Below, piece by piece: positions 6,881 through 59,900 of a stretch of 64,000 nt of DNA. The notes under the pieces were generated by a model, which ran no database searches, was not told the origin of the DNA, and saw only the letters and a program-made list of their open reading frames with translations. Source of the stretch: Calditrichia bacterium (GTDB lineage Bacteria; Calditrichota; Calditrichia; RBG-13-44-9; J075); contig JANQQU010000015.1 of the NCBI GenBank assembly GCA_028284905.1, forward strand, positions 1 to 64,000, in the 5' to 3' direction. How positions within the stretch are numbered: position 1 is the stretch's first letter; each line of letters opens with the position of its first letter. Position numbers and translations under genes: made by a program.

Positions 6881-6931
6881 ATTGAAGAATATTCAGAATA
6901 AAATATTTACCGGTTATTGCAAGAGGATGCA

Positions 6932-9900
6932 GTGAAAATCGACAAGCAATACTGCTTCATATATATACTTTTAAAGATACTTATTTTATTTCCAGAATTT
7001 CTGCCGGGTCAATCGACGCCGGTCATTCAGGGATATAGAGATTTTAACTACGGCACTACTGTCAATTCTACCCCAATGGGAGAGATCCCGGAAAGCAAGT
7101 TGTGGTGGCATGACAATTATTGGTGGGCCAGTTTATGGAACGATAGTTTGAATAGCCATACTATACATCAATACAACTTCCCCACAAGCAGCTGGAGGAA
7201 TACCGGAGTTACAATCGATGATCGTTCCGGGAGTAAATCGGATGTACTTTCGGATGGCAACAAACTCTTCATTGCCTCCCATATTTTCTCCAATACCGCC
7301 CAATCAGCATCTGCTGCAAACGCTGCCAGGCTTTATCGTTATAGCTACAGTAATAGCGACACAAGCTACAGTCTGGATGCCGGATATCCGGTTCTGATTA
7401 ACAGTTCAAAGTCTAATTCCCTGGTATTAACAAAAGATACCGCCAGTCGTTTATGGATCACCTGGGTAGATTCCGGTGCGATTATGATCAACCATAGCAG
7501 TGGTGATGATGCCACCTGGGCGACCCCATTCAGCCTGCCAAACCAAACCGACACAACGACCTGGGAAGATGTGTCATCGATTATTACGTTCGGTGACAGT
7601 ATTGGCATCTTCTGGACGAATCAGTCTACAGAAAATGTGCACTTCGCTGTACACGCCGCTGCAGACAGTGTCCACATCTGGCAGGAAGAGGATGTTGTTG
7701 ACAATGAAGATGAGGACGGCGGGCTGGAAGAAATAATCAGCGACGAAATCAATCTTGCTGCTTATAATGGTATTGTTTACAGCGTTGTGCAATCTTCCGA
7801 AGCAGAAGATGAAGATCCGCAAATAATCGTCTTTCGCCGAAATGCCGCGAATAGCTGGGAGCACTTCACCTTTGGCGTGGGAGATGATAATCATCGCCAG
7901 GCTCTGGCAGTTATTGATACATCCGGCCAAAAGCTTCATGTGTTTGCCGGTAGTCGGCAAAGCAGTATCGAATATATTTATCATAAGTCCGCGCCATTAT
8001 CGACCCTGAGTTTCCCTTCCGGTCAGGGCACCTCTTTTATTGCCAGCGCGAGTGACATTCGCATAAACAAAATTAGCGCCAGTAAACAATTGGCCGGCAA
8101 CCAATCCGGCATCTTAATACAGGCGAATGACCAGACGACCCGCAACTACCTGCACAATTTTCTGGAATTGACCGATAAACCGGTAATTAGTGATTTTTTT
8201 CCGGCAAGAGGCCCGGTTGGCACAGTTGTAACAATAACCGGCCGAAATTTCAGCAGCGTTTCCAATATTCAATTTAACGGCGTCTCCGTAGACAGCTTTA
8301 CGGTGGTTTCGCCCTTTGAAATCATTACCACTGTCCCGAACAGTGCCGCTGATGGCCCGGTAACCTTAACCAACCCAAATGGCCAAACCAGCAGCGAGGA
8401 TATTTTTACCGTAAACCTCCCGCCATTTGATTTGACAACATCGGTAATTGGTGCCGGCAGTATCTCAATTTCTCCCGGCAGCGGCAGTTACATGACACCG
8501 ACCGATGTTGCCATTTCGGCAATACCGGACTCCGGCTATATTTTTAGTGCCTGGACCGGGGATCTCTCCGGCACGGTCAACCCGGATACTATCCGGATGG
8601 ACGACGATAAAGTTGTTACTGCTATATTCATAGAATACGAAGGGGAACAGGTCAGCTATCAGGAAACCGTTACCGGAAGCTCCAGCGGAAGCAGCACAGT
8701 TTCGACAGATAGCGCCCTTACCCGTATCAATGATGCGTTGTATTTGGCTGCGATCACTTCCAAATCGCCGGAAACTGTTTCCATGGTTTCCGGTCTGGGA
8801 CTCTCCTGGACATTGCTGAAAAGCCAGTGCTCCGGCAGAAATCATACCGCAGTCGAAATCTGGCAGGCACAAGGCACTCCCAGTGCAGATGGCATCGTCA
8901 CTGCGACTTTTGCAGATGCGCCGGGAAATGCCGTCATTGCTGTCACTCGTTATGCCTGGGTCGATCCGCTGAATCCCATCGGCAACATCATTTCCGGGAA
9001 CACGAATGGAGAAGACGGTCTTTGCAGCGGCGGTGTTGATAGTAACGCCTATGCCTTTCCGATTGCAGCCACAGATAGCGGCGCAGTAATTTACGGGGCG
9101 GCGGCTTTACGTAACCGTTTTCATTCACCCGGCAGTGGATATACCGAAAGAATTGAATTGGCACAGGGCACTGGCGGTAGTGCAGCCACCCTGGCAGTGC
9201 AGGATTATCTTTCCCCTACCCCGGACAGTTTGACATTCAATGGCGATATTAGCGGCAACGTGGATTGGGCAGTTGCAGCACTGGAAATACGCCCTGGCAC
9301 TGCCGGCGCAGGCCTCCCCCTCTATTCCGTAAATACATCGGTAAGTGGTGAAGGATCGGTTTCTAATACTCCCTCCAACAGTTTGTATTACCAGGGCACA
9401 ACCGTTCAATTGACGGCTTCGCCTGCTGCCAATTATCAATTCAGTCATTGGAGTGGAGATACGAGCAGTACCACTAATCCTATTTCCATACCGGTCAATG
9501 GCGATCGTAATCTGATAGCAAATTTTACTAATCTGCCCCAGTATACGATGACAGTTTCGACGGTTGACAGCGGCAGTGTTCTCCTTAATCCCTCCGGCGG
9601 GACTTATTTCAGTGGCAGCAGCGTCGTACTAACTGCCGAGCCGGACAGCAACTATCAGTTTCTGAGCTGGACCGGAGACTTAACCGGCAGCGAAAATCCG
9701 GACACCGTCATAGTCGATAGCAATATTGCTATCACTGCAAATTTTGCTGAGTTACCACAATATAATTTAACAACGAGTATCTCTGCCGGTAATGGTAGTA
9801 TTCACATGGATCCTCCCGGCGGTATATACTATAGCGGCACTTCGGTCGTCTTAACTGCTCAGCCGGATTCCGGATATGAATTTCAGGACTGGACTGGAGA

Positions 9901-12820
9901 CTTAAGCGGTTCGAACATCAGTGATACCTTAATTATCGATGCGAATAAAAGTGTCAGCGCCAATTTTCAGGAACTGCCTATTTATTCATTAGACACGACA
10001 ATTATCGGAAATGGCAACATCGTTTTACAGCCTGCCGGTGGTAGTTATTATCTTGGAACAGAAGTGGTGTTGGATGCCGTCGCAGATTCCGGATTTTTAT
10101 TTCAGAACTGGGGTGGGGATCTCACAGGTTTTCAGTCCCCGGATACTGTTACCATGGATAGCAATATTGCCATAACCGCAGTTTTTCAGGATACCGCGAC
10201 CATTGCCTATACCATAACGGCCAGTGTCGATAGTAATGGCAGCATTTCACTTCTGCCGGATAATCCTACTTACAGTTACGGGGATACAGTGATTGTTCAG
10301 GCAATTCCGGATTCCGGCTATGGCTTAAATGCCTGGCATGGGGATCTAATTGGCAATGAAAATCCTGACACGTTGATTATGGATGGCCATAAAGTTATTT
10401 CTGCAACAATTACCGAATTACCTCAGTTTACGGTAACTGCCATCAGCGAAGGAAATGGCGCGGTGCAGCTATCACCTCCGGGCGGCATCTATTATCAGGG
10501 GAGCACAGTTATCGTAACTGCAATTCCGGATTCCGGGTATCGATTACTCGACTGGGATGACGATCTGGATGGCGATGACAATCCGGACACTCTATTCATC
10601 GATACGAGTAAAACCGTTACGGCAGAGTTTATTGAGCTGCCGCAATATACTTTAACAATCGACACCATGGGCACCGGCACGATTACCCTCCAACCGCCCG
10701 GCGGCACTTATTACCAGGGGACAACGGTTTACTTGACAGCACAGAGCGGGCCGGGACATCTATTCGCCGGATGGCAATTTGGGTTAAACGGACAAATGAA
10801 TCCGGATAGCCTGGTCATTAGTAAGGATCTCAATTTGAAGGCGGCCTTCGTCACCGTTCCTCAACCAAGAGTAAATGACGGTATCTGGATCAACCAGACG
10901 GAGATCGATTCACTCCCTGCCAGCGGGCTAGCCTGGGATTCTTTACTCTCGGAAGCGAATCGCACTATCGGCATTCCGAATGTCAGTGATCAGGATGATT
11001 CTCTGAATGTGCGTATTTTTGCCAAGGCTTTAGTATATGCTAAAACCGGTATTGCAACCTACCGAACAGATGTTATTAACGGCATCATGAATGCGATTGG
11101 CACTGAGACCGGTGCAAGGGTTCTGGCGATTGGCCGGGAGATTCCCGCTTATGTCATTGCTGCAGATCTGGTCAACCTCCCGGTTTATGAAGACAGTTTA
11201 TTTCGGGACTGGTTAACGCTGCTTCGGTCAACAGTTTTTGATGGGAGCACTATTCGGGAAACCAATGACCATCGTCCGAATAATTGGGGTCTTCATGCTG
11301 GCGCTGCCCGGATCGCAATTTCCTGTTACCTGGGAGACAGCACCGAAGTTGCCAGAGCGGCTTTGATTTTTCAGGGTTGGCTGGGAGAGCGACAGCGCTA
11401 TAGTGATTTTAACTATGGCGATCTTTGGTGGCAGTCGGATTCTACCCAACCGGTAGGCATCAATCCACTTGGCGCGACGCTGAATGGACACAATGTGGAT
11501 GGCGTGCTTCCGGATGAACAAAGACGAGCCGGCACTTTTAGTTGGCCACCTCCAACTACAAGTTACAACTATGAAGGCTTGCAGGCTGCGATGAGCCAGG
11601 CGATTATGCTCCATCGATTGGGGTATGATGTTTTCCTCTGGTCGGACCAGGCATTACTTCGTGCTTTTCAATGGCTTTATCAGCAAGCGAATTATCCTGC
11701 GGATGCTGATGACAGATGGTTACTGCATGCGGTTAATCATTATTACGATGAAAATTTTCGAGCGGATATCCCTACTACTCCCGGCAGAAGTTTTGGGTAT
11801 ACCGATTGGTATTACGGCGCTCATGATTCACTAACTGTCAGCCATACTGGCAGCGGCAGAGTGAACCAGGTGGCGCTCGGCAGAGATGCGCAGGGAGATA
11901 TGCGTATTGAATTAACTGCTGACCCCAGTAGCGAATACAACTTTGATCAGTGGAGTGGAGATTTAAACAGCACTATCAATCCGGATACTGTCATATTAGA
12001 TGGCAATAAAACGATCACCGCACTATTCTCGAAAGGATTAGACAGCTCATCCGTTCGGGTTCGGGTAAAAGTATTCCTGGAAGGACCTTTTCAAACAGAC
12101 TCGATGCAGACAAACCTGGCCAACCAGGGTGCACTGCCATTAAGTCAACCATTCAACATCTCACCCTGGAATTATGATGGCACTGAATCCGTTACAGCGA
12201 TGGCAGATAATGTGGTAGACTGGGTTTTAGTGAAGCTAAGAACGAATTCATCAGCGAACAGTGAAGTGGCTGGCATTGCTGCCCTCCTCACCAGCGATGG
12301 TGATTTAATGCGAGCAGACAGCGCCGCCGCCTTAAAATTTTACGGTTTTTCCAGCGGCAACTACTACATTACGGTTTATCATCGCAATCATTTACCAATC
12401 ATGAGCCCCACTTCGCTCTTCTTGAGCAGTACGACCAGTGATTATGACTTTACCAATAGTCAAAGCAGTGCATATGGCTCAACCCCGATGGTGCAACTGA
12501 ATGACAGTATTTATGGCATGGTCGCCGGTGACGGCAATAAGGATTTTGCAGTTGATTCCCTGGATAAACAGCTGAATTGGCGGATGCATAATGCTACCAA
12601 CTGGACATACGACAAATACAGCGATTTTAACCTGGACAACAGCATCGACGTTTTCGATTTGAATTTTATATGGCGTAAGAACAATGGGCGATCGACAACG
12701 ATTCCGTTTAATCCGCCGGCAGGTCCAGCAAACGGTAACAGCTTGCTGCCCCCTTCTCCACCCGGCGAGAAAGCAATTATGCCATCACAACAATTTTATT
12801 CTCCGGTGAGAAGAGAATAA
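6932..12820 (+). CDS. Giant secreted multidomain protein with alginate-lyase-like domain
   Basis: I chose GTG 6932 because AAGAGG lies about six bases upstream; an in-frame TTG at 6917 is less likely. Domains in order: a hydrophobic signal (about 5-30); a region without clear homology, perhaps a beta-propeller (30-420); an IPT/TIG fold (about 420-500, GPVGTVVTITGRNFSS); one InlB repeat; a beta-rich domain of about 215 residues shared with the next gene (about 570-790); seven InlB repeats; an (alpha/alpha)-toroid alginate-lyase-like domain (about 1310-1620); one more InlB repeat; the shared FLEGPF module; and a dockerin-like segment. The lyase-like part shows NNWGLH, DGVLPDEQRRAG and SYNYEGL, matching the Asn, Arg and Tyr positions of A1-III-type (PL5/PL38-like) lyases. 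The usual His after NN is Trp here, so activity and substrate are uncertain. Probably a secreted polysaccharide-degrading or -binding protein. Confidence 0.85.
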   Translation: MKIDKQYCFIYILLKILILFPEFLPGQSTPVIQGYRDFNYGTTVNSTPMGEIPESKLWWHDNYWWASLWNDSLNSHTIHQYNFPTSSWRNTGVTIDDRSGSKSDVLSDGNKLFIASHIFSNTAQSASAANAARLYRYSYSNSDTSYSLDAGYPVLINSSKSNSLVLTKDTASRLWITWVDSGAIMINHSSGDDATWATPFSLPNQTDTTTWEDVSSIITFGDSIGIFWTNQSTENVHFAVHAAADSVHIWQEEDVVDNEDEDGGLEEIISDEINLAAYNGIVYSVVQSSEAEDEDPQIIVFRRNAANSWEHFTFGVGDDNHRQALAVIDTSGQKLHVFAGSRQSSIEYIYHKSAPLSTLSFPSGQGTSFIASASDIRINKISASKQLAGNQSGILIQANDQTTRNYLHNFLELTDKPVISDFFPARGPVGTVVTITGRNFSSVSNIQFNGVSVDSFTVVSPFEIITTVPNSAADGPVTLTNPNGQTSSEDIFTVNLPPFDLTTSVIGAGSISISPGSGSYMTPTDVAISAIPDSGYIFSAWTGDLSGTVNPDTIRMDDDKVVTAIFIEYEGEQVSYQETVTGSSSGSSTVSTDSALTRINDALYLAAITSKSPETVSMVSGLGLSWTLLKSQCSGRNHTAVEIWQAQGTPSADGIVTATFADAPGNAVIAVTRYAWVDPLNPIGNIISGNTNGEDGLCSGGVDSNAYAFPIAATDSGAVIYGAAALRNRFHSPGSGYTERIELAQGTGGSAATLAVQDYLSPTPDSLTFNGDISGNVDWAVAALEIRPGTAGAGLPLYSVNTSVSGEGSVSNTPSNSLYYQGTTVQLTASPAANYQFSHWSGDTSSTTNPISIPVNGDRNLIANFTNLPQYTMTVSTVDSGSVLLNPSGGTYFSGSSVVLTAEPDSNYQFLSWTGDLTGSENPDTVIVDSNIAITANFAELPQYNLTTSISAGNGSIHMDPPGGIYYSGTSVVLTAQPDSGYEFQDWTGDLSGSNISDTLIIDANKSVSANFQELPIYSLDTTIIGNGNIVLQPAGGSYYLGTEVVLDAVADSGFLFQNWGGDLTGFQSPDTVTMDSNIAITAVFQDTATIAYTITASVDSNGSISLLPDNPTYSYGDTVIVQAIPDSGYGLNAWHGDLIGNENPDTLIMDGHKVISATITELPQFTVTAISEGNGAVQLSPPGGIYYQGSTVIVTAIPDSGYRLLDWDDDLDGDDNPDTLFIDTSKTVTAEFIELPQYTLTIDTMGTGTITLQPPGGTYYQGTTVYLTAQSGPGHLFAGWQFGLNGQMNPDSLVISKDLNLKAAFVTVPQPRVNDGIWINQTEIDSLPASGLAWDSLLSEANRTIGIPNVSDQDDSLNVRIFAKALVYAKTGIATYRTDVINGIMNAIGTETGARVLAIGREIPAYVIAADLVNLPVYEDSLFRDWLTLLRSTVFDGSTIRETNDHRPNNWGLHAGAARIAISCYLGDSTEVARAALIFQGWLGERQRYSDFNYGDLWWQSDSTQPVGINPLGATLNGHNVDGVLPDEQRRAGTFSWPPPTTSYNYEGLQAAMSQAIMLHRLGYDVFLWSDQALLRAFQWLYQQANYPADADDRWLLHAVNHYYDENFRADIPTTPGRSFGYTDWYYGAHDSLTVSHTGSGRVNQVALGRDAQGDMRIELTADPSSEYNFDQWSGDLNSTINPDTVILDGNKTITALFSKGLDSSSVRVRVKVFLEGPFQTDSMQTNLANQGALPLSQPFNISPWNYDGTESVTAMADNVVDWVLVKLRTNSSANSEVAGIAALLTSDGDLMRADSAAALKFYGFSSGNYYITVYHRNHLPIMSPTSLFLSSTTSDYDFTNSQSSAYGSTPMVQLNDSIYGMVAGDGNKDFAVDSLDKQLNWRMHNATNWTYDKYSDFNLDNSIDVFDLNFIWRKNNGRSTTIPFNPPAGPANGNSLLPPSPPGEKAIMPSQQFYSPVRRE

Positions 12821-26561: not shown

Positions 26562-26615
26562 TTTTCCCAGCCATGTTAAATTCGGTTTAAACCAATTGTT
26601 GCGGAGGCTTTGATA

Positions 26616-27974
26616 TTGTCTGAAGGGTTGTCGAAAAAATACGTTACCGTGCGGGAATTTGTCGAAAGTTGGGATAAAGAATTATACAAGCTTACCAACC
26701 TCGATTACTTTATATATCTGCTCATAAACCATATGGGCAACCAATTGGACAAGCATTTTTTTAATGCCCCGCGAAATGATTCTCAGCTACTTTTAAGTTT
26801 TGAAAGCATTGGCACTTTATGCTTTAATATTGGTGACAGCTTCGAATATTTTCTCGAAGAAGATTCTTTCGGCCGTTATAGCGTAGATTATCGGGTTGAC
26901 AAAGAAATGTCCGGTGAAGTGCTCGATCGCAACTCGGATGTAACCCACCGCCGCTTGAAAAGCTTGCAAGCATTATTGACTCACGGATATTTTAAAGAAC
27001 AAAGTTTTCGCGCAGACCTGATGGAATATGTTATCATCGATACATTGCTCCAATTCTACTACGAGGAAATTGGCATTGAATTCGGTGATGAAGATATGGA
27101 GATCATGGCGTTGGCAGAATTTATCGAAGACACTATGATTCGTTTTATTCGCGCCGAGGGAAAATCGCTGCTGCAGAGATATGACGATCCTGCTATCGAC
27201 TTTTTTGAAAAGCTACTTGAGCTGGAAGAAGGGATTAATGAAGCACAGCGCTGGCAGAGTAACGGACGTGAAATGGCAGAAGATTCACATGATTGGTCCG
27301 CGAACAAAATTGGCCATGAGAATGCCCTGGATGATGTTTTTAAGCGCTTCATAGCGGATAGCGAAAGGGATGCTTCTCAGGACGATCTCGGTTGTTTGTC
27401 CTGTACTATTGAGTTATTCCAATGTTATCTGCAGGAAGAAGCCCGCATTAACAGTATCTACGAAATTTCCCCGACCCATATCAATGAATTCCTCTCTGTT
27501 TGGCTCATCAAAAAATTTGCACATGAATCCCCTCCCCGCTTTCCGCAATTATTTCAGTCTTTAGCAAGATTTATTACCTGGTTAAACAAAAATCTTGGCA
27601 TCGAGCTAAAGCGGGAATTTATTCGTTTTTATGATAATGTTAAGACAGAGATCCCCCGGGTTGTCCGCATTCTCCATTCCTATCTTCAGGAATACAATCT
27701 TTTCGAAATAATGCTCTTGAGAAACCAGGAAGACGCTGAACAGATTGATGGTTTTTTTGAAATCACCGAGTTTTCCCAACGGCCGGAGAAAATCCTTAGC
27801 CTGGAAAACATTCACCAATATCAACCACTGAAAGATGTTGGATTGAACATGTCTTCCTACAATAGTTTACGTAAGGGAGACGTGCTACAGGCAACTGTAG
27901 TCAAGAAAAATGAAGATTGGGAAATATTGGAAATACACTACTTATTCCCGAATGCCTCAAAAGCTTATCTTTAA
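26616..27974 (+). CDS. Conserved-looking hypothetical protein, 452 aa, cytoplasmic
   Basis: I chose TTG 26616 because GGAGG ends eight bases before it; the TTG at 26610 is too close to that site. I recognise no domain. The sequence has no signal peptide or membrane helix and is predicted from composition to be mostly alpha-helical and acidic. There is a possible boundary around residue 225-250, where a charged, low-complexity stretch occurs, and a small beta-rich end (LRKGDVLQATVVKKNEDWEILEIHYLF). One segment has two cysteines (LGCLSCTIELFQCY). The short gap to the ABC exporter suggests cotranscription, but no shared function can be claimed. Confidence 0.8.
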   Translation: MSEGLSKKYVTVREFVESWDKELYKLTNLDYFIYLLINHMGNQLDKHFFNAPRNDSQLLLSFESIGTLCFNIGDSFEYFLEEDSFGRYSVDYRVDKEMSGEVLDRNSDVTHRRLKSLQALLTHGYFKEQSFRADLMEYVIIDTLLQFYYEEIGIEFGDEDMEIMALAEFIEDTMIRFIRAEGKSLLQRYDDPAIDFFEKLLELEEGINEAQRWQSNGREMAEDSHDWSANKIGHENALDDVFKRFIADSERDASQDDLGCLSCTIELFQCYLQEEARINSIYEISPTHINEFLSVWLIKKFAHESPPRFPQLFQSLARFITWLNKNLGIELKREFIRFYDNVKTEIPRVVRILHSYLQEYNLFEIMLLRNQEDAEQIDGFFEITEFSQRPEKILSLENIHQYQPLKDVGLNMSSYNSLRKGDVLQATVVKKNEDWEILEIHYLFPNASKAYL

Positions 27975-28178: not shown

Positions 28179-28341
28179 TAACGACCTCTCAAACCACGAT
28201 TATAATTGTTTATGAACGCCTGCACTTTTTCGTAAAAATCCCCGAGAAGATATTTACTGCCCGACGAATTAAATCATGTAACTTTCCCCTATTCCCCCCG
28301 TAAAAATTTGTTGGTCAAAGTATAAATCCGGGAGTGTGTAT

Positions 28342-29892
28342 ATGGCATCTAGGTTAACGATTTTTTTGATACTTCTCAGCTCCGTCTTCGGAGTGCTATT
28401 TGCGCAGCACTATGATCGCGATCTGGAGAGAGTCCGATATAAGGCTGAACGCAAGTATATTCACTATTACGACCGGGATGAAATTTGTCGTTTCGATGGT
28501 TCCACGACTGTCTCCCGGAACGAAGTTATCCGTGGGCCAGTGGTTGTCAGTCGCGGCAATTTACATGTCCGCGGGAAAATTAACGGAGACGTCCTGGTCC
28601 TCTATGGCGATGTTATCATTCACGATAAGGGTAAAGTGCGTGGGGACGTTACCACAGTAAATGGTAATATTCGATTACGCCGTTACGGCTATGTTTCCGG
28701 AAAAATGCTCGAAACTCATGAACGCAATCTTCGCCGCACCCGCCGTTACGTACGCAACTATTCTTCTTACCGCTACTCCTACCGGCCAGTGAATTATGGC
28801 ACCCTGCGCATGCCCAATACCGATCACAATGTTGCTTTACGCTATAACCGGGTAGAAGGCGTTTTTCTCGGACTGGAAGTGCCGCGCACTTTACACCGTC
28901 ACGCCAGTCAATTTGATCTCTATGGTTTTGCCGGATATGGGTTTGACAGCGAGGAATTTCGCTATCAGATCGGTTTGCAGCGCTGGCTGTTCGACCCGGT
29001 GGATTTCCGCACTGAAATCGGTTTTGAATATCATGACCTGACCGACACTAAAGATCTCTGGCGCATCGATTACCTGGAGAACTCCCTTTCCGCTTTCTTT
29101 TTGAACCGGGATTATCACGATTATTATCAGCGGCAGGGATTTAGTTTTCGCTTAAGCCAGAACTTTACCCGTTTCTTCCAGATCAGCGGTGAGTATCGCC
29201 GGGATGACTATTTCAGCATGCCCCTGGTAACCGAATGGTCGTTGTTCCGCCGGGATGCAACCTTCCGCCCCAATCCGCAGTTGGGTCAATATGAAGGCAA
29301 CATGCGTTCTATTTATGCCCAGTTGCTGGTAGACACTCGCAATGATATTCATTACCCCCGGAAAGGATTATATTTCCGTGTCAGTGGTGAAACCTCCCAC
29401 CCGGGACTACGGAGCGATTTCGATTTCGAGCGCTATGTCACCGAAGCACGCTTCTACCAGCCGATTAGTAATGGCGAAAGAATTATGCTAAGACTTATCG
29501 CCGGCACCGCCCGTGGCGACTTGCCTTTACAGAAAAATTTTGAACTTGGTGGACTTAGTACACTACGTGCTTACCCCTTTAAAGCCTTCGCCGGAAACCG
29601 AATTTTCCTGGCAAACGTAGAATATTTGCTATCCCCGGATATTTTTGATAATTTTCTGGGAATTGACGGACTGGATTTCATCGTCTTTGGAGATATGGGT
29701 GATGCATGGAGTGGGGATAACGATGAAAGCATTTTTGATAGCTTTCAACCCTGGCGCTGGGATCGCCTGAAAACGGATGTCGGATTAGGTATTGCAGACA
29801 GTGATGGACATTTCCGCCTGAATATCGCAAAACGCACCGACAGATCAGATAATGATGTTGTAGTTACTTTCAGATTGAGGCAGCCGTTTTAA
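28342..29892 (+). CDS. Outer-membrane beta-barrel (Omp85/surface-antigen-like) with bactofilin-like N-terminus
   Basis: ATG 28342 has GGGAG seven bases upstream. The signal peptide is residues 1-21 (IFLILLSSVFGVLFAQ). Residues about 50-130 form a short repeating hairpin series (RGPVVVSRGNLHVRGKINGDVLVLYGDVIIHDKGKVRGDVTTVNGN), like bactofilin/polymer-forming cytoskeletal strands. A basic linker (RRTRRYVRNYSSYRYSYR) leads to a barrel rich in alternating aromatic strands. Its end resembles the Omp85/bacterial surface antigen C-terminus: NFELGGLSTLRAYPF (an RxY variant of the RGY motif), FVFGDMGDAW-like and FRLNIAKRT, with a final aromatic Phe. POTRA domains are absent. It is probably an outer-membrane protein of unknown role, and the first gene of a four-gene operon. 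Confidence 0.78.
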   Translation: MASRLTIFLILLSSVFGVLFAQHYDRDLERVRYKAERKYIHYYDRDEICRFDGSTTVSRNEVIRGPVVVSRGNLHVRGKINGDVLVLYGDVIIHDKGKVRGDVTTVNGNIRLRRYGYVSGKMLETHERNLRRTRRYVRNYSSYRYSYRPVNYGTLRMPNTDHNVALRYNRVEGVFLGLEVPRTLHRHASQFDLYGFAGYGFDSEEFRYQIGLQRWLFDPVDFRTEIGFEYHDLTDTKDLWRIDYLENSLSAFFLNRDYHDYYQRQGFSFRLSQNFTRFFQISGEYRRDDYFSMPLVTEWSLFRRDATFRPNPQLGQYEGNMRSIYAQLLVDTRNDIHYPRKGLYFRVSGETSHPGLRSDFDFERYVTEARFYQPISNGERIMLRLIAGTARGDLPLQKNFELGGLSTLRAYPFKAFAGNRIFLANVEYLLSPDIFDNFLGIDGLDFIVFGDMGDAWSGDNDESIFDSFQPWRWDRLKTDVGLGIADSDGHFRLNIAKRTDRSDNDVVVTFRLRQPF

Positions 29893-29894
29893 CA

Positions 29895-32453
29895 ATGATT
29901 AGAAACACGATACAATTATTTTTCACCCTGTTTTCCTTGCAATTCGTATTGGCACAGGGGCATGTAACGCTGGAAATTTCCGATATCCGCTTTGATGAGG
30001 TTCGTTTTGCCGGCTTCAAGCTGGACAGAACGAGAACCATTGAAATTGAAGCGATTGGTGGCGGATTTGAAAAAGCCGCTAAACACTTGGATAACGATTA
30101 TTATGACCGGCATGACATGTTCGTATATGCCTGGATCCTTGATGCGAAATCGCGGGATTTGGTTTGGCGAATGACTATTGGCAATACCGAATCGTCCGAT
30201 GAGGGTGAATTTATTCGGGAATATGACAATGAGATAGAATTGCCACCCGGTCGTTATGAAGCTTACTTTTTTGCCAAACGACCCAATCGGGCAATCTTTG
30301 GTCAAAGCGGTATCCCCAGTCTTCGTGAATTTTTCCGTCGGTTATTTCGTGAAAAGAATTGGGTAGAGATATTTAAAGAATTCAGTTTCCTGAAAATTTC
30401 CGGTATTGATGAAGTTTACTCCAAAGCCGAAATACGGGAATATCATCGCAAGATAAATCCTCCGGCACTCACTCTCACCCAGATGAGAAACAATGACGCC
30501 CGGGAAAAACGCTTTACTCTAACTGAAGACGGCGTTTTTGAAGTCTATGCCCTTGGCGAAATTTTGGATGGAGACGAATACGATTATGGCTGGATCGTCA
30601 ACGAAGATACCGGTGAAAGAATCTGGTCCATGCGCCAACAGCATAGCAATTATGCCGGTGGTGCCAACAAAAACCATTATTGGAAAAGCATCCTCAATCT
30701 AAAGGCTGGCAATTATTCTGTCCATTACGTTACCGATGATAGCCATTCACCGGAGCGCTGGAATGCCAATCCCCCCTATGACCCATATTTCTGGGGCTTA
30801 TCACTTTATGGTGTTCCCGGTAAATATTCATCCAAAATGATGAAAGAATACGAAAAGCCGGAAGCGCTCAAGCTGCTGTCAATCAATGAAGTCGGCAATC
30901 ACCACTACGAAAAGAAGGGCTTCATACTGACCGAAAAAACGGCGATGCGGGTATTTGCTATCGGCGAAGGTAGTCGTCATCGCATGAGTGACTTTGGTTG
31001 GATTGAAAATGCCCGTACCGGCCGAATTATCTGGGAAATGAAATATCACAAGACCGATCATGCCGGTGGCGCTTCTAAAAATCGTAAAGCGGAAGACACT
31101 TTAGTCCTTAATCCCGGTGAATATTACCTGGTATACAGTTCCGATGGCAGCCATGCCTATAATAGCTGGAATAATACCCAGCCTTACAATGCCAGTGATT
31201 GGGGCATTACGCTCTACCCACTGGATGCTAATTTCAACCCGAAAAGCGTGCGTTTATTCGATAAAGAATTCGTGGAGCCCGCTCTGGAAATCACCCAGGT
31301 CCGTGACGATGAATTCCGGCAAAAACATTTTAAAGTGGAACGCACCACTCGCTTCAGAGTTTTTGCCATTGGCGAAGGCACTCACTATTTGGTTGACTAT
31401 GGGTGGATAGAAGAAGTTCGCACCGGCCGTGTCGTTTGGAAAATGCGCTATCGTAAAACGGTACATGCTGGCGGTGCCAAGAAGAATCGCAAGATCGATG
31501 AAGTTATCGAACTGGATGCTGGCGATTATGTTCTGAATTATCAAACCGATGATTCACATGCTTATGGCGATTGGAATGCCTCTCCCCCATATGATCAGCA
31601 AAAATGGGGCATCTCCCTTTACCAGTTGGATAGCGGAGAAGCCACGATTCAACCATTGTCCAGGGCACCGAGTGACCTCCCACGTCCTTTCTTATCACTG
31701 ACCCGTATTATGGATGACGAACTTGTCTCGAAACGATTTACATTGGAGGATGAGAGTGATATACGGGTGCTCTCTATCGGTGAAGGCAGCAATGGTGAAA
31801 TGTATGACTACGGATGGATTGCCAATGCAACCACCGGCCGCCGCATTTGGGAGATGAAGTATCGCGATACAGACCATGCTGGTGGCGCCAGTAAAAATCG
31901 AGTGGTTAATGAAGTAATCTCCTTACCAGCCGGTGAATATGTGGCCTATTATCGCACCGATGATTCCCACAGTTATAAGCACTGGAATAGCAGAGAACCG
32001 CGTCGACCGGAATTATGGGGAATTTCGCTAAGTGCCGTGACCATCGATCCTTCGGAAATTCGGGTTTATGATGATGCCAAATCCTCTCAGGAAGTGATCT
32101 GCAAACTCGTTGAAATTCACGATGATGAGCATAGCAAACGCACTTTCCGTATTAACAGTCCGACAGTCGTCCGTATATATGCCATCGGCGAAGGCGATGA
32201 CGGCGAAATGTATGATTATGGCTGGTTAGAGCATCGTGATAGTCGCGAGGTTATCTGGGTTATGGAATATGATGAAACCAGTTGGGCTGGTGGCGCACAT
32301 AAAAACCGCACATCTTCAATCACCCTTACGCTACAGCCCGGCCAATATACCTTGCATTATGTTACCGACGATTCTCATTCCTTTGGCGACTGGAACTCCT
32401 CTCCGCCCAAAGACCCGAGAAGCTATGGCATTACAGTTTCCAAGTTAAAATAA
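29895..32453 (+). CDS. Secreted protein with five tandem HAGG-type domains of unknown function
   Basis: 852 residues, starting two bases after the preceding stop. The signal peptide is at residues 1-20. One degenerate unit (about 22-150, YAWILDAKSRDLVWRM) precedes five full units of about 125 residues (from about 190, 325, 460, 600 and 725). The unit consensus runs: ..D.GWI.....GR.IW.M.Y..T.HAGGA.KNR....I.L..G.Y...Y.TDDSHS...WN..PP.DP..WGI.L. Invariant Gly, Trp, His and Asn positions suggest a compact beta-fold, perhaps binding metal or carbohydrate. I do not recognise it as a named family. One more unit sits inside the sensor kinase at about 57.8-58.2 kb. Likely periplasmic or surface-exposed, working with the barrel protein encoded just upstream. 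Confidence 0.85.
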   Translation: MIRNTIQLFFTLFSLQFVLAQGHVTLEISDIRFDEVRFAGFKLDRTRTIEIEAIGGGFEKAAKHLDNDYYDRHDMFVYAWILDAKSRDLVWRMTIGNTESSDEGEFIREYDNEIELPPGRYEAYFFAKRPNRAIFGQSGIPSLREFFRRLFREKNWVEIFKEFSFLKISGIDEVYSKAEIREYHRKINPPALTLTQMRNNDAREKRFTLTEDGVFEVYALGEILDGDEYDYGWIVNEDTGERIWSMRQQHSNYAGGANKNHYWKSILNLKAGNYSVHYVTDDSHSPERWNANPPYDPYFWGLSLYGVPGKYSSKMMKEYEKPEALKLLSINEVGNHHYEKKGFILTEKTAMRVFAIGEGSRHRMSDFGWIENARTGRIIWEMKYHKTDHAGGASKNRKAEDTLVLNPGEYYLVYSSDGSHAYNSWNNTQPYNASDWGITLYPLDANFNPKSVRLFDKEFVEPALEITQVRDDEFRQKHFKVERTTRFRVFAIGEGTHYLVDYGWIEEVRTGRVVWKMRYRKTVHAGGAKKNRKIDEVIELDAGDYVLNYQTDDSHAYGDWNASPPYDQQKWGISLYQLDSGEATIQPLSRAPSDLPRPFLSLTRIMDDELVSKRFTLEDESDIRVLSIGEGSNGEMYDYGWIANATTGRRIWEMKYRDTDHAGGASKNRVVNEVISLPAGEYVAYYRTDDSHSYKHWNSREPRRPELWGISLSAVTIDPSEIRVYDDAKSSQEVICKLVEIHDDEHSKRTFRINSPTVVRIYAIGEGDDGEMYDYGWLEHRDSREVIWVMEYDETSWAGGAHKNRTSSITLTLQPGQYTLHYVTDDSHSFGDWNSSPPKDPRSYGITVSKLK
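30463..32453 (+). repeat. Five tandem HAGG-domain units (about 390 bp each)
   Basis: Coding repeats begin near 30463, 30865, 31270, 31680 and 32085. All carry codons for the GWI/GWL, W-M-Y, AGGA-KN, DDSH or DGSH, and W-GI/YGI cores. They are diverged in sequence, so this is an old protein-domain array rather than a recent DNA duplication. Confidence 0.85.
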
Positions 32454-32498: not shown

Positions 32499-33293
32499 AT
32501 GAAACATTCGCGTCGATATTTTAATCTGCTGCTGGTTCTTCTTTTCGGATTGACCGGCATGACCTATGCTGGCACTCTGGAAAAAACCGTAAAAAAAGAA
32601 GCCCCGCTTAAATATGGTGGCGAAGTCGTTCTGGACAATGTAAATGGCAAAATTACTATCGAAGGCTGGGATCGGGAAGAGGTGTCAGTAATAGCGGAAA
32701 TCCGCGTTCGGGACAGAAACGAAGACCGTGCCCAGGAGCTTCTCGATGAGATTGAGATCGATTTTGATGAGCGACGGGGAGAAATTCGTATCAGAACGAT
32801 TACCCCGAAACGCAACAGTGGTTTTTGGGGATGGGCCAGTGGTAACAAATCATCGGTTAGCGTTTATTATCGTTTAAAAGTGCCGGAAGAATGCTCTCTT
32901 GACATCGACAACACCAACGGCGCAATTGAAGTATCTGACGTTGAAGGTGAAATTCGCCTGGAATCAACCAATGGGAAGATCTGGACAGAATCAGTCGGCG
33001 GTTCGGTAAATGCAAATACGACCAACGGCTCAATTAAAGTAGATATTGCTGATATTACATCATCCAGAGACATGGAATTCACAACGACGAACGGCAGTGT
33101 AAAGCTGTATCTACCAGAAGATGCCGGCTTCGATCTCAACGCCCGAACAACGAATGGTTCTATTAAGACAGACTTCTCCATGAACTCCCGCAGCAACTAT
33201 AATCGCAGACGGATGCAGGGCAGCGTAAATGGTGGTGGACCACTGGTTTATGTAGAAACGACCAATGGCAGCATCAATGTCTGGGAAAGATAG
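32499..33293 (+). CDS. DUF4097-family secreted beta-strand repeat protein
   Basis: 264 residues with AAAGGACAG before the ATG and a signal peptide (LLLVLLFGLTGMTYA). The body shows the DUF4097 pattern: VNGKITIEGWDREEVSVIAEIRVRD, then short repeats NTNGAIEVSDVEGEIRLESTNGKI, TTNGSIKVDI, TTNGSVKLYL, ARTTNGSIKTDF and ETTNGSINVW, that would build a right-handed beta-solenoid. The function of the family is unknown; members are often found near envelope stress and adhesion genes. It is the third gene of the envelope operon, 45 bp after the HAGG protein gene and overlapping the glycosyltransferase. Confidence 0.92.
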   Translation: MKHSRRYFNLLLVLLFGLTGMTYAGTLEKTVKKEAPLKYGGEVVLDNVNGKITIEGWDREEVSVIAEIRVRDRNEDRAQELLDEIEIDFDERRGEIRIRTITPKRNSGFWGWASGNKSSVSVYYRLKVPEECSLDIDNTNGAIEVSDVEGEIRLESTNGKIWTESVGGSVNANTTNGSIKVDIADITSSRDMEFTTTNGSVKLYLPEDAGFDLNARTTNGSIKTDFSMNSRSNYNRRRMQGSVNGGGPLVYVETTNGSINVWER

Positions 33294-34473
33294 TTCCCGC
33301 ACAGCCGCCCGAATTGCTTTTCTAGTATTTTTTACACTTCTCATTGGGAACGGCCTCTATAAATATCTTGTTAAAGGCGTTATCGGAGACTATTCCCAAT
33401 GGGATCTTCATTCCCACACCAGTGCTTTTTCGCTATTAATGCAGGGGGTTCCCCTGTATACCGAAGCATCATCAATCCCCTACCTTCCTCCTTTTACACC
33501 ATTAACATTTCCGTTATTGGATTTTTTTGCCAGTTTTTCCCGAGAGGTAACTCAATGGATATGGTTACTGGTAACCAGCATATCTTATCTGTATATTTTT
33601 TCTAATATTATAACAACAATTTCCGACAAAGAGAACATCCGCTTAACGCTGCCCGAACAGCTGATCCTCGTTCTAAGTTTCTGGCTATTCCCCGGCACCT
33701 ATCTGGGATTTGCCGCCGGGCAAATATCCATGCTGGTTATTATTTGCCTGATGTTGTTTTGGATAAATGAATCGAGGCACCCTTACCTTGCGGCATTTTT
33801 TCTTGCACTGAGCACTATCAAGCTGACGCTGGCAGTACCGTTTTTTATTTACCTCCTTTATAAGAATTGTATTCGGACTTTCATCATCGCATCAGTGATT
33901 GCCATTAGTTTGAACACGCTGATCAGCTTTTTCTATCTTGGATTTGGCGGACACATCAATCAAATGTGGCAGGCGACAATCGCCCTGGAGCCGCTAGGTG
34001 TAAACAGTTATCTCCAGATGGGCGCCAGCGGCAGAGTGGACCTCGCCCCGTTTCTGGCGATTTTTAACATTCAGGGAGTTGCCTGGATCGTTATCGCGAC
34101 ATTGATATTCACCACCGGTATGGCCTATCTTTATCGGAAACGACATGAAATGCCGAGTGAGATATTATTACTAAACCTAAATTTACTCTTTTTTACAATA
34201 TTATATCATCGTGCATATGATCTAACATTACTACTGCTGATCGCAATACCATTAATCTGGAAACAGCGATTGTATTTGGGCAACTTATTCTGGGCGGGAT
34301 TAATTTTTTCCATTTTGCCACTGCAATTAATATTTCAGTCTGGAATGACATACTTCCCCAAACTTTCCATTCTCTGGCATTTAATCGGCGCTTCGACAAT
34401 TGTTGCAATTGTTACGATTGCTTTTTTTCTAAACAAGAATCTCTTGCCCACCTCTAAAATGCCTCTCCCCTAA
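33265..34473 (+). CDS. GT87-family (DUF2029) membrane glycosyltransferase
   Basis: 402 residues with about ten hydrophobic segments (for example ARIAFLVFFTLLIGNGLYKYL, LVTSISYLYIFSNII, HLIGASTIVAIVTIAFFL). The acidic residue in QWDLHSH near the end of the first loop and the LPYLPP-like motif (IPYLPPFTPLTFPLL) fit the GT87 family, which moves a sugar, often mannose, from polyprenyl-phosphate to an extracytoplasmic acceptor. The ATG at 33265 overlaps the DUF4097 gene by 29 bp; a second ATG at 33277 is also possible. The overlap indicates translational coupling. Inference: it may glycosylate an envelope glycan or the operon's own products. Confidence 0.85.
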   Translation: MAASMSGKDSSRTAARIAFLVFFTLLIGNGLYKYLVKGVIGDYSQWDLHSHTSAFSLLMQGVPLYTEASSIPYLPPFTPLTFPLLDFFASFSREVTQWIWLLVTSISYLYIFSNIITTISDKENIRLTLPEQLILVLSFWLFPGTYLGFAAGQISMLVIICLMLFWINESRHPYLAAFFLALSTIKLTLAVPFFIYLLYKNCIRTFIIASVIAISLNTLISFFYLGFGGHINQMWQATIALEPLGVNSYLQMGASGRVDLAPFLAIFNIQGVAWIVIATLIFTTGMAYLYRKRHEMPSEILLLNLNLLFFTILYHRAYDLTLLLLIAIPLIWKQRLYLGNLFWAGLIFSILPLQLIFQSGMTYFPKLSILWHLIGASTIVAIVTIAFFLNKNLLPTSKMPLP

Positions 34474-54460: not shown

Positions 54461-56392
54461 TTAGCGTACTAGCAACATCTTACGGGATTGATAAAACTCT
54501 CCGGCACTCATACGATAGATATACACCCCACTGGCGACAGCTTCACCTTCGTCGTTACGCCCATCCCACACTACTGTTTTTTCCCCAGCCGCTTCCCGGC
54601 CACTTACCAGTGTGCGGATTTCTTCGCCCAGTGCATTATAGATTTTCAGAGAAACGGTTGTATTCCCCGGCAGAAAATATCGTATCGTGGTTGCCGGATT
54701 AAATGGATTTGGGAAGTTCGCTTCCAGTCGATAAGATGCCGGCTGAGTAGATTCATTACGAATGCCAACGGGATCGTCATTTTCGATAAAATGATGAAAT
54801 CCTGAAGAAAGCGTCCCTACCTCCTGAATTTCTCCGGTTGGCCAGATGATCTTTAATTCCCCGGATGTATTTCCTCCCATCCCGAAATAAGCAGCGCGGT
54901 AATCTCCACCGCCATGGGTGGGGCCACTGTTAATATCCCGAATCTGGGTAATTCCATCCGGTGTTGTCAGCGACAGGCGGCTGCCAATGGCATCCCGGTT
55001 ACTGATCGTCCCCTCCAGTGTAATCGTCATGAAATTATTGGTATTTCCAAGTTCTTTCCCGCGATTAAGCATTAACATAAGATTTTCGGCATAATTGGCG
55101 ACAAAGAGGTCCACGAAACCATCGAAATTAAAATCGACCATCGAAGCATTTCTCCCCCGGCCGGGATCGTTTAAACCGGTGCTGTCGGAAACTTCAATGA
55201 AGGTGCCATCAGCTTCATTCTCGAACAATACATTTGGCTGGTCGACACCATTATTGGCGATTGGGCCACCAGCAAAAAATAAATCAACCCACTGATCGTT
55301 GTTATAATCAAAGAAGGCTGTCGCCCAGGTTACATTTCTTCGTCCCCCCGGGGTTTGCGGCCGATCCACACCAGCGCTAACTGAAACATCGGTAAATGTG
55401 CCGTCACCATTATTTCGGATCATTACATTCGGCCCAAAATTACTGAAGGCGGCATCCATATAACCATCGTTATCGTAGTCGCCCAATCCCAGCCCCATGC
55501 CACTCAGACTGATATTCGCTCCGGAAGCGACAGAGACATCAGTAAAAATCCAGCCACCGCTGATGCTATCCGGGCCATCATTTCGCCAGAGCACGTTTTC
55601 GAAAAAATTACCATTAATGTCATCATTGATTAAATAAAGGTCGAGGTCGAAATCATTATCATAATCGAACCAGCCGGCAGTAAAACCGAGGCCACCGACT
55701 TGATCGCAGGTAGGATCCCCATTACAAAGCCAGGAGGTAACATCGCTAAAAGTGCCGTCGCCATTATTCTTGAACAGACGGTCTTCGCTCTCCCGCGGTA
55801 CCGGTTGACATTCAAAGTGCTTGGATAAATAAAAATCCAGCCAGCCATCACCATCAAAATCGGCCCAGGAAGCGGTCACCGCTCGCCCACCATCTGCTAC
55901 GCCAGCAATCTCGGTGACATCCACAAAAATCGCATCTCCGGTTTCCGTCAGGGTATTTTTATAGAGAATGTTACCGTATAAGTTGGTTAGGTAAAGGTCT
56001 TGGTCCCCATCATTATCATAATCAATAAATACCGCGCCATGGCTCACATTTGCAGCAGCTTCTACGCCACAAATTTCCGCGACATCCAAAAAGTTAGGCA
56101 AATTATCGTTGTTGGTATCCCCTAAATTTTGATAAAGCCAGTTCGCTCCGCCATGATTGGTTACATATAAATCCAGATTACCATCATTATTAAAATCGGC
56201 CCAGGCCGATCCGGATCCCAGCTCTGGCCGATGGCAAACGGTGCTATCCAGCGAATGAAGGGTATCCAGACCAGTAGCGATTGCAATATCAACAAAAACA
56301 GGCGATTGAGCCTGCAAACAACTAATAGAAATCAGCAGGCTAAATATCCCTGCCAAAACAACATTTTTCTTTAACATACGCTGTCTCCTCAA
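54461..56392 (-). CDS. Secreted VCBS/FG-GAP protein with ASPIC-UnbV domain and type IX-like tail
   Basis: 643 residues with a signal peptide (VVLAGIFSLLISISCLQAQ). FG-GAP/VCBS repeats (calcium-binding DFNNDGNLDLYVTNHG, DYDNDGDQDLYL, DFDGDGWLDFYLS, DYDNDGYMDAAFS, DYNNDQWVDLFFAGG, DFNFDGFVDLFVANY) form a propeller. They are followed by an ASPIC/UnbV domain (RDAIGSRLSLTTPDG, GPTHGGGDYRAAYFGMG), as in cartilage acidic protein 1-like proteins. The C-terminus is a FlgD-Ig type tail: NFPNPFNPATTIRYFLP, VVWDGRNDEGEAVASGVYIYRM and a final RKMLLVR. Such tails direct type IX-like export in this superphylum, so a surface location is likely. Confidence 0.92.
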   Translation of the reverse strand: MRRQRMLKKNVVLAGIFSLLISISCLQAQSPVFVDIAIATGLDTLHSLDSTVCHRPELGSGSAWADFNNDGNLDLYVTNHGGANWLYQNLGDTNNDNLPNFLDVAEICGVEAAANVSHGAVFIDYDNDGDQDLYLTNLYGNILYKNTLTETGDAIFVDVTEIAGVADGGRAVTASWADFDGDGWLDFYLSKHFECQPVPRESEDRLFKNNGDGTFSDVTSWLCNGDPTCDQVGGLGFTAGWFDYDNDFDLDLYLINDDINGNFFENVLWRNDGPDSISGGWIFTDVSVASGANISLSGMGLGLGDYDNDGYMDAAFSNFGPNVMIRNNGDGTFTDVSVSAGVDRPQTPGGRRNVTWATAFFDYNNDQWVDLFFAGGPIANNGVDQPNVLFENEADGTFIEVSDSTGLNDPGRGRNASMVDFNFDGFVDLFVANYAENLMLMLNRGKELGNTNNFMTITLEGTISNRDAIGSRLSLTTPDGITQIRDINSGPTHGGGDYRAAYFGMGGNTSGELKIIWPTGEIQEVGTLSSGFHHFIENDDPVGIRNESTQPASYRLEANFPNPFNPATTIRYFLPGNTTVSLKIYNALGEEIRTLVSGREAAGEKTVVWDGRNDEGEAVASGVYIYRMSAGEFYQSRKMLLVR

Positions 56393-56950: not shown

Positions 56951-59900
56951 TTGATTCAGCCCCATACTGTCGTTAACTTCGAATATATGCGAAACAAGCG
57001 GCCAAAACAAATGCAGATATTCAACTTACATAACATAACAGAATTTAGATGCTATATACCTTCCGGCCGCCGTCGGTTTTCCTCATATATTTTATTGGTT
57101 ATTGTTTTTTTACTCTTCCACGCGGCCAGCCTCCCCGCTCAGGATATAAAATTTGAACGTTTTTCCCAGGAGAAAGGGCTGTTTCAAAGTAACATCACAA
57201 CCATATTCCAGGATAGCAGGGGGTTGATCTGGGTAGGCACCTCTGATGGCTTATCCCGCTATGATAGTTATGAGTTTACGATTTTTCGATTCGACCCAAT
57301 GGATGAACACTCTATTTCAGGCAATTACATTCATTCTATTTATGAGGATCGTTTCGGCTATCTTTGGGTGCGCACCAGTGGTGGGGGCATCAATATGTTT
57401 GATCCCGGCAATCGCACTTTTACGCATTTTTATAATGATGCTAACGATCCGTTCAGCCTTAGCAATGACAATATTTCCTGCCTGCTGGAGGATCGAAAAG
57501 GCAATTTTTGGCTGGGCAGCAATGGTGGAGGACTCAACCTCTTTGTTCGCGAGGAGGGCACATTCAGACATTGCCGGAACTCATCAACTTCTCCGCAAAG
57601 CCTCAACAATAATTTTGTCAGCGATTTACAGGAAGATAAAAACGGGGATATTTGGGTCGGAACGAATGGCGGAGGGCTGAATAAGTTTACACCTCCGGAT
57701 TCCTTGAAATTATCCCAAATGCATCAGTCATCTCCAAATTCTCCAGCTTTAAACGATATTCGATTTACGCAATACTATGCTGCGGGAGAGACCTATCCGG
57801 CGGATGTTTTCAGTTTTGCAGACAGCCTTACCAGGGCCAAGCTGGCAATAGCCTCCGTGCTACAGCCGGAAAACTACCAGGAGAGCACCCACGATTTCAC
57901 TTTAAACAAAGCCACTGAAGTACTGGTCGTCGCAACCGGCGATGGAAACGCATATGGAATGACAGATTATGGCTGGATTGAAAGAGTGCCGTTCGGCTCG
58001 AAAGTTTGGCAGATGCGCTACGAAAATTCGACCCATGCCGGTGGTTCAACCCGTAACCGGGTATTGATGGAAGTAATGACGCTGCAACCCGGCAGCTACC
58101 AACTTCGCTATCGTTCCGACCACGAACATTCTTTCAATAATTGGGTCGGCAATCCTCCGGAATACGCGTCGCTTTGGGGAATTCAGTTATTCGTGCTGCC
58201 GAAATCCCGCGCTGGATCATTATCAATGCGGCTTCGCCAGAAAATTGTCCCCAATTCTCTTTCTCATAACTGGATAACTGATCTGGAAACCGACCCGGAC
58301 GGCAATCTTTGGATCGGTACCGCCGATGGTATCTCGAAACTGAACCTCGATGCACTGATGGATGAATCCGAACAATTTAACACATTTAAGCATCATCCCG
58401 GTCAGGAGAGCTCTCTTAACCACAGCTACATACAACGGATTTATCGCGGCAAAGATGGCGGGAATTTTCTTTGGGTATTAACACCGGCCGCCGGGCTTAA
58501 TCAGATTGATTATCGAACAGGGAAAAATATACGGTATGCGCCGACAAACAATACTCGTGGAGAAGACAATCTCTTATTGAGTGACGGGCAAATTAGCGGC
58601 TTACTGCTGGACCGTTATAATCATCTTTGGGTTGGCACTGCAAATGCCGGCTTAAACTGTTTTTCACCAGCAGTGCTGGATAGTTCCGGTAAACCGAAAT
58701 TCAATCCCATCACTTATTTCCGGCATGATCCGGGTAATCCGCAAAGCCTCAGCAACGACGGTATTACCACTTTATTCGAAGATCGCTCCGGCACAATCTG
58801 GGTCGGCACCAGTCGTGGCGGCCTGAATCAATTGAATCAGCGTCAGAGTAAATTTCAACATTTCACACATCAGCCGGAGAACCCTCAGAGCCTCAGTCAT
58901 AAGGTGATCACAGCAGTTTATGAAGATTGGCAGGGGGTGATTTGGGTGGGCACAGCCGGTGGCGGGTTAAATAAATTGGTGCGAAATCCGGACGGGGAGA
59001 ACAAGTTTACATTCACCCATTTCAAACATTCTCCGGAGCGCACTGATGGATTAAGCCATAATTTTATTTCCGCAATCTACGAAGACAAAGTCAGAAATCT
59101 CTGGATTGGCACCTATGGGAATGGTTTGTCTAAAGTATTAGACAGAGAGGAAGGGAAGTTTGCCCATTACCGCTATGATCCTTTTAACAACCGAACCATT
59201 ACCGGAAACTTCATCAATACGATTTATGAAGATCAGTTTGGGCAATTATGGATTGGCACCAATTCCGGCTTAAATAAATTTGATCGCTTTACGGAGAAAT
59301 TTAACCAGTACCGCCATATACCGGGTGACTCCAGCAGCCTCAGTAACAATGAAATTTGGTCGATTTACGAAGATAGCTACAGTCATGGCAAAACCCTTTG
59401 GATCGGTACTCGTGCCGGCGGACTGAATAAATTCGATCGAAAGAATGAAAAATTTATTCGCTACATGCGCGATTTTGACGACCCGCATAGCCTCAATAAT
59501 CCGGCAATACTTTCTATCCATCAGGATAATGCCGGGGCGCTCTGGTTCGGCACCTATAGCGGTGGATTGAATAAATTCAACCGTGAAACCGAGCAATTTA
59601 CTTTTTTTACCGAACGGGACGGCCTTTCGAACAACATGATCTATGGCATTCTTGAAGATCGTAAAGGGAATCTATGGCTGAGCACGAACAATGGCCTTTC
59701 CCAGTTTAACCTGATGAATGAAACATTTAAGAACTACGATGTTTACGACGGACTGCAAGCCAATGAGTTTAATGCCGGGGCACATATCGTCAGCTACAAT
59801 GGTGAAATGATCTTCGGTGGCGTCAATGGCATTACCGTCTTTCACCCCGATAGTATCTCCGAAAACAGTGAGCCTCCTCCGATAGTTTTTAATGCATTTA

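Follow-up and report, generated by a model that had tools for sequence, protein, structure and literature searches.

A domain without a named family, here called HAGG, recurs in an exported tandem-repeat protein and in a sensor histidine kinase encoded in the window analysed in this study, a 64,000-nucleotide stretch of DNA from a Calditrichia bacterium. Our analysis revealed that HAGG is a real, widespread and unnamed domain family with a known fold; its gene cassette is unusual and conserved, its function is one that we infer below, and what is new is the domain family rather than the kind of system. The sequence-only reading of this DNA had recognised no named family in the motif set and had named a strong match to a characterised family as the outcome that would overturn it; no such match appeared in the libraries searched. 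The HAGG unit had no match in NCBIfam, PHROGs or PDB sequences, nor any over the curated cut-off among the Pfam results shown for the array protein and the kinase. Comparison of 62 full-length homologues with Pfam returned scattered weak matches, none of them consistent (best family E 1.3e-5).

The array protein and its units lie as follows, with E values taken from a profile search of the bacterium's own genome:

29895-32453, + strand: exported HAGG array protein of 852 aa, with a signal peptide, a degenerate unit and five full units; the C-terminus is the last unit
29967-30269, + strand: degenerate unit u0 (E 6e-6)
30462-30815, + strand: HAGG unit 1 (E 8e-54)
30870-31226, + strand: HAGG unit 2 (E 7e-55)
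31278-31631, + strand: HAGG unit 3 (E 2e-56), template of the single-unit structure model
31686-32039, + strand: HAGG unit 4 (E 3e-55)
32094-32447, + strand: HAGG unit 5 (E 7e-55)

The protein starts with an apparent signal peptide (MIRNTIQLFFTLFSLQFVLAQ, assigned by eye), and its five full units and one degenerate unit, as originally counted, were all recovered by a profile of the six full copies. Units are about 118 residues long, their motifs recur with a period of 135-137 residues, and the other array units share 42-51% identity with unit 3. Twenty columns are invariant in the six full copies (F19, G33, D41, G43, W44, W55, M57, A65, G66, G67, N71, L80, G83, Y85, Y89, D92, H95, W100, P105 and G112). 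The motifs themselves, which had been described as invariant, proved to be near-invariant only: units 1 and 5 have YAGG or WAGG in place of HAGG, DDSHS occurs also as DGSHA, DDSHA and DHEHS, and WGI as WGL and YGI.

The HAGG unit is confidently modelled as a beta-sandwich, apparently a jelly roll of the collagen-binding/GOLD class. The AF2 model of a single unit is an eight-strand sandwich (pLDDT 88.6, pTM 0.82), and the model of a 583-aa core protein, built with 62 sequences, contains four sandwich units including the degenerate one (pLDDT 90.0, pTM 0.75). The units thus have one predicted fold and are specifically homologous; a loose set of look-alike sandwiches, which had been named as a second way for the idea to fail, is ruled out by the specific motif conservation, with E values down to 1e-50. 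A fold search with the single unit identified the C-domain of the C. perfringens enterotoxin, p24 GOLD, CBM6 and PPC/ColG domains near E 1e-3 and with TM of about 0.4-0.6, while the full core model matched the ColG tandem domains (5iku, E 7.9e-7) and CUB proteins at a low overall TM, as expected if the domain spacing differs. As judged from the models, these matches are similarity of fold class, and a toxin reading of the enterotoxin match (TM about 0.5 or below) was rejected on the same grounds.

The PPC (PF04151) and ColG collagen-binding domains, of which 1nqj, 5sv5 and 5iku are among the nearest solved folds, are jelly-roll beta-sandwiches, a fold that HAGG may share with them (Foldseek TM 0.45-0.56, E 1e-3), and in a plausible alignment register the DYGW of HAGG falls at their D..DW position. 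However, HAGG differs from them in its extra conserved loops, AGG.KNR and DDSHS..WN..PP, and in having no Pfam match. A profile comparison by hhalign with a small PPC set, 8 sequences built from relatives, did not reveal significant kinship (probability 4.8%, P 0.008; unrelated controls 0.1-1.1%). The GOLD domain of p24/TMED proteins reaches a Foldseek TM of 0.51/0.61 at most (p24delta1), but its identity to HAGG is 8-12%, it belongs to the eukaryotic secretory pathway, and there is neither a common motif set nor a Pfam match. CBM6 and similar carbohydrate-binding modules were matched by Foldseek at E about 1e-3 but with TM of 0.37-0.43 and no family match, and HAGG has no attached glycoside hydrolases in the loci seen. 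Several of these nearest solved folds (ColG collagen-binding, pre-peptidase C-terminal, CBM6 and p24 GOLD domains) are binding modules.

Conservation in the unit is concentrated in three loops, GEG...DYG, M...AGG.KNR and TDDSHS..WN..PP. In the conservation set of 307 core and 16 sensor units, the core means were 2.25, 2.55 and 2.70 bits for loops C-D, E-F and G-H, compared with 1.44, 1.85 and 1.83 bits for loops B-C, D-E and F-G. From the strand order and the antiparallel rule, the C-D, E-F and G-H loops should all lie at one end of the sandwich and form a conserved pole. The degenerate unit is informative in this respect. In the 62-member alignment, u0 retains the strand residues W..W..GxY (W81, W92, G120 and Y122) and lacks the AGG.KNR and DDSHS..WN..PP loops, and although these conserved loops are lost, the sandwich is kept in the model with high confidence, suggesting that the loops are dispensable for the fold. 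In the sensor copies, the pole retains W, AGG, N, D, H, W, P and G.

The sensor copy in the window belongs to the following genes:

56951-61015, + strand: sensor histidine kinase with Reg_prop propellers, Y_Y_Y, HisKA_3 and HATPase_c (Pfam) and an inserted HAGG unit
57848-58198, + strand: HAGG unit of the kinase, residues about 300-416, between Reg_prop blades
61238-61861, + strand: LuxR-type response regulator (Response_reg and GerE) adjoining the kinase, its presumed partner

The kinase had been proposed to hold a sixth copy inside its propeller, and a full unit is indeed found there: direct BLASTP of the kinase against the array gave E = 5.5e-25, and the own-genome profile search gave E = 5.6e-52 with a model that itself includes the kinase unit. 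At the sequence level, this similarity is far beyond chance. The six-copy profile gave 15 HAGG matches in the genome of the window, among them four more HAGG sensors, on contigs C47, C69 (two) and C75, and a second exported HAGG protein on contig C92, with 3+1 units in a 607-codon open frame. The suggestion that the domain is common to exported proteins and to extracytoplasmic sensor parts likewise held, as the pairing recurs across phyla.

Every sensor examined has Reg_prop repeats and Y_Y_Y; the HAGG insert follows a blade strand and linker, and its position along the propellers varies from about residue 141 to 553. Each of the ten HAGG sensors scanned, the window kinase included, unites Reg_prop, Y_Y_Y and an output in a single protein, and the outputs are diverse: HisKA_3 kinase (window, L054 and L182), HisKA kinase (L055), LytS-type His_kinase (L157), a hybrid containing receiver and AraC domains (L154) and SpoIIE/PP2C (L153, L156, L180 and L181). 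With full Reg_prop, Y_Y_Y and output domains, the HAGG hosts resemble known Reg_prop/Y_Y_Y sensors (Bacteroides HTCS such as BT4663, and PP2C and kinase variants), but they carry an extra unit between blades that is not described in the literature found. The PP2C sensors of Ignavibacteria/Chlorobi adjoin a STAS gene and a second SpoIIE gene, to which L153 adds an RsbW-like ATPase; by its gene content, this neighbourhood is a partner-switching operon. Such operons were seen at L153:129-6412, L180:31-5808, L181 and L183-L186, and a literature search for partner switching with propellers in Ignavibacteria found no paper. Locus L155 (G031 contig C36) encodes two HAGG propeller proteins about 0.9 kb apart with differing unit sequences. 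The whole genome G000 has at least 150 Reg_prop repeat matches, pointing to a large propeller-sensor set.

The typical HAGG protein is an exported protein of about 580 aa with one degenerate and three full units that stops at the last unit, and this 1+3 form is ancestral; the 5+1 form of the window was also found in G003 and G004. In a tree of 71 units, those of the three-repeat protein grouped across phyla, mainly according to their position (u1, u2 or u3), and a single branch (99% SH-aLRT) set all 13 sensor units apart. One branch also split sensor from core in a tree of 18 sensor and 32 core units (support 97/96), for which the alignment had 115 columns only and the bootstrap was not fully settled. 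By these trees, the three-repeat protein is old. The sensor module, whose clade spans five output types, has either one origin or one long separate history. A recent tandem amplification specific to the window was considered and rejected in view of the positional grouping of the three-repeat units.

Whole-genome searches found the core protein in 39/40 Calditrichota genomes, and in 23/23 of good quality (>=90% completeness and <=5% contamination). The phylum of G048, taken as Zixibacteria, had it in 81/133 genomes (53/79 at good quality), the class of an Ignavibacteriales genome (Ignavibacteria) in 24/149, and a sample of other phyla in 1/20; Bacteroidota are among the phyla with the core protein. 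A scan of genome contigs yielded 80 loci from Calditrichota, KSB1, Zixibacteria, Gemmatimonadota, Ignavibacteria/Chlorobi, Rhodothermia, Cyclobacteriaceae/Fulvivirgaceae/Roseivirga and Marinimicrobia, and from a small number of MAGs carrying the labels of other phyla. The Ignavibacteria genomes G289, G302, G348 and G368 have sensors and, as far as their assemblies are complete, no core protein.

The array gene is enclosed by two partner genes:

28336-29892, + strand: partner gene 1, POTRA-less outer-membrane barrel (OMP) of the Omp85 superfamily, 518 aa (Omp85 PF01103, E 8e-16)
32499-33293, + strand: partner gene 2, exported toastrack protein (DUF4097) of 264 aa (PF13349, E 2.8e-13)

The order Omp85 barrel, HAGG protein, toastrack is kept in many genera of Calditrichota, where an OMP lies within 3 kb in 18/28 loci and a toastrack within 3 kb in 19/28; the barrel is usually directly upstream, with a gap of 2 bp in the window. 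KSB1 has a variant cassette with an OMP and a LiaF-like protein (4/5 loci), and an OMP directly follows HAGG in 2/9 Ignavibacteria and 1/2 Chlorobi loci. In Zixibacteria, a TldD/TldE pair stands upstream instead (5/12 loci), and in Bacteroidota none of the 10 loci had OMP, toastrack/LiaF-like or TldD/TldE neighbours. Many HAGG genes outside Calditrichota and KSB1 are without Omp85 or toastrack neighbours. The TldD/TldE (PmbA) pairs were seen upstream of the HAGG gene in L081, L133, L136, L145 and L151, and in L133 a protein of about 212 aa without Pfam match lies between the pair and the HAGG gene. In L053, a second HAGG gene adjoins a 1053-aa protein (L053:11403-14564) in which a CHAT-like protease domain, an ATPase segment and two DUF1566-like repeats were recognised by eye.

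In the window, the cassette is flanked by conserved proteins without Pfam match at 26610-27974 and 33265-34473, the former also present in the same synteny block of relatives. Elsewhere, 6917-12820 encodes a 1967-aa protein in which nine InlB B-type repeats are combined with a TIG and an alginate lyase domain, and 54461-56392 encodes an exported FG-GAP/ASPIC protein that has FlgD-like matches and weak matches to a secretion tail and is transcribed away from the HAGG kinase. The expectation that arrays lie near kinases was not borne out: they are usually not adjacent, and their recurrent neighbours are the Omp85 barrel and toastrack/LiaF-like proteins. In the window, array and kinase lie 24 kb apart; G003 shows this spacing too and conserves further genes of the same block, so that the spacing may be plain synteny. 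The idea that the array senses its own neighbour kinase was accordingly dropped, as arrays are generally not near kinases.

All 27 barrel homologues matched PF01103 and most have the L6-type motif GG..TLRGY/F, placing them with the Omp85/TpsB superfamily, but they differ from it in lacking POTRA, no POTRA family being found among the matches of the 27, and in a bactofilin-like N-terminus. In partner gene 1, this bactofilin-like beta-helix segment precedes the barrel (Bactofilin PF04519, 3e-5, below cut-off), and 17/27 homologues have a Bactofilin match. The searchable text of the 2014 Omp85 survey describes ten subfamilies, with POTRA-less members known, and contains no bactofilin type (PMC4104836). 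The POTRA-less barrel with a bactofilin-like N-terminus is possibly an undescribed Omp85 subfamily. The partner gene 2 family is identified as toastrack by DUF4097 in 22/24 homologues and LiaF-like_C in 9/24, in common with toastrack/LiaF-type envelope-stress proteins, but its members appear exported, with an apparent signal peptide, and are tied to HAGG and Omp85. One study regards most toastrack domains as cytoplasmic, links them with PSP envelope-stress systems as proposed partners and proposes them as a scaffold of stress-signalling complexes (PMC11237479); given the apparent signal peptide here, the envelope-stress link may not carry over. PspA and PspC were absent from the recurrent neighbours clustered or annotated around HAGG, and a literature search for DUF4097 together with bactofilin found no paper.

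Our leading interpretation, held with slightly less than even confidence, is that HAGG is an extracytoplasmic ligand-binding module with the three-loop pole of the sandwich as its recognition site. A recognition role of the pole is favoured because its loops are conserved and because u0 has lost them with the sandwich kept. The exported protein, with its degenerate and three units (five here, units having been added), would be a multivalent binder in the periplasm or at the cell surface, and together with the POTRA-less Omp85 barrel and the toastrack it may form an envelope module. The copy between the blades would let the propeller/Y_Y_Y ectodomain read ligand occupancy and pass the signal to histidine kinases, hybrid systems or the PP2C phosphatase of a partner-switching operon. 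The pole would bind a ligand, and array and sensor may see related ligands. The earlier suggestion of one common ligand found no support, however: the sensor clade is distinct and some Ignavibacteria genomes show sensors without the exported protein, so that the ligand of the sensor may differ. The leading guess for the ligand is a glycan or glycoconjugate, either from the envelope or from the surroundings, because several fold neighbours are carbohydrate- or matrix-binding and the Reg_prop/Y_Y_Y ectodomain of Bacteroides HTCS binds oligosaccharides (PMC3243724), BT4663 being such a sensor as reviewed in PMC5121618. Against this interpretation, no enzyme or polysaccharide-use locus was found, and the Omp85 and toastrack neighbours are missing beside many HAGG genes outside Calditrichota and KSB1.

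The cassette also lends itself to a different explanation, in which HAGG is a protein-protein module, the array binding the Omp85 barrel and the toastrack and the sensor copy monitoring free partner as a gauge of assembly or envelope stress. The tightness of the Calditrichota cassette, its KSB1 variant, the OMP beside HAGG in Ignavibacteria/Chlorobi and the scaffold role proposed for toastracks (PMC11237479) all agree with this, yet sensors apparently occur without an array in the four Ignavibacteria genomes and many array genes have no Omp85 or toastrack nearby, and we consider it rather unlikely. The same absence of a barrel beside many arrays weighs on the idea of a two-partner-like export with the array as client or cofactor, a surface protein secreted by its neighbour. 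The barrel gene directly upstream and weak ShlB/FhaC matches in 12/27 barrels speak for such export; neither hallmark of two-partner secretion, a POTRA in TpsB and a TPS domain in TpsA, was seen in the pair, the Pfam scan of array homologues listing no TPS domain, and we regard this route as quite improbable.

Other explanations concern the pole itself. The conserved Asp, Asn, Glu and His of the loops could coordinate a metal (Ca2+), either to stabilise the fold or for Ca2+-dependent adhesion. Some collagen-binding and CUB domains have Ca2+ sites, and both ColG collagen-binding domains and CUB-containing proteins are among the fold matches; these matches, however, hold at the level of fold class only (TM about 0.45-0.6 for the unit), and Trp, Arg/Lys and Pro, for which a pure metal site has no need, are conserved as well, and we consider a metal site improbable. 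Equally doubtful as two-partner-like export is a plain structural spacer, whose conserved residues would stabilise long loops with no ligand. Tandem units without catalytic domains would suit a spacer, as would aromatic and glycine conservation, which is frequent in stabilising networks, but the degenerate unit keeps its sandwich without the conserved loops and most pole residues are retained in the sensor copies.

The ligand-binding interpretation can be extended, speculatively and with a low probability, to the view that HAGG marks an undescribed envelope-surveillance system across FCB phyla, in which the array, the bactofilin-Omp85 barrel and the toastrack would handle an envelope glycan whose state the HAGG-bearing Reg_prop sensors would signal to kinases or a partner-switching stress cascade. 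All 23 high-quality Calditrichota genomes and about two thirds of those of the second phylum encode the exported protein, which is nevertheless nameless in the libraries searched, and genes this widespread usually do something basic in the envelope. The HAGG motif set provides a ready profile for annotating the family, and the sensor insert, with its five kinds of output, may offer a handle on the ligands of large propeller sensors outside gut Bacteroides.
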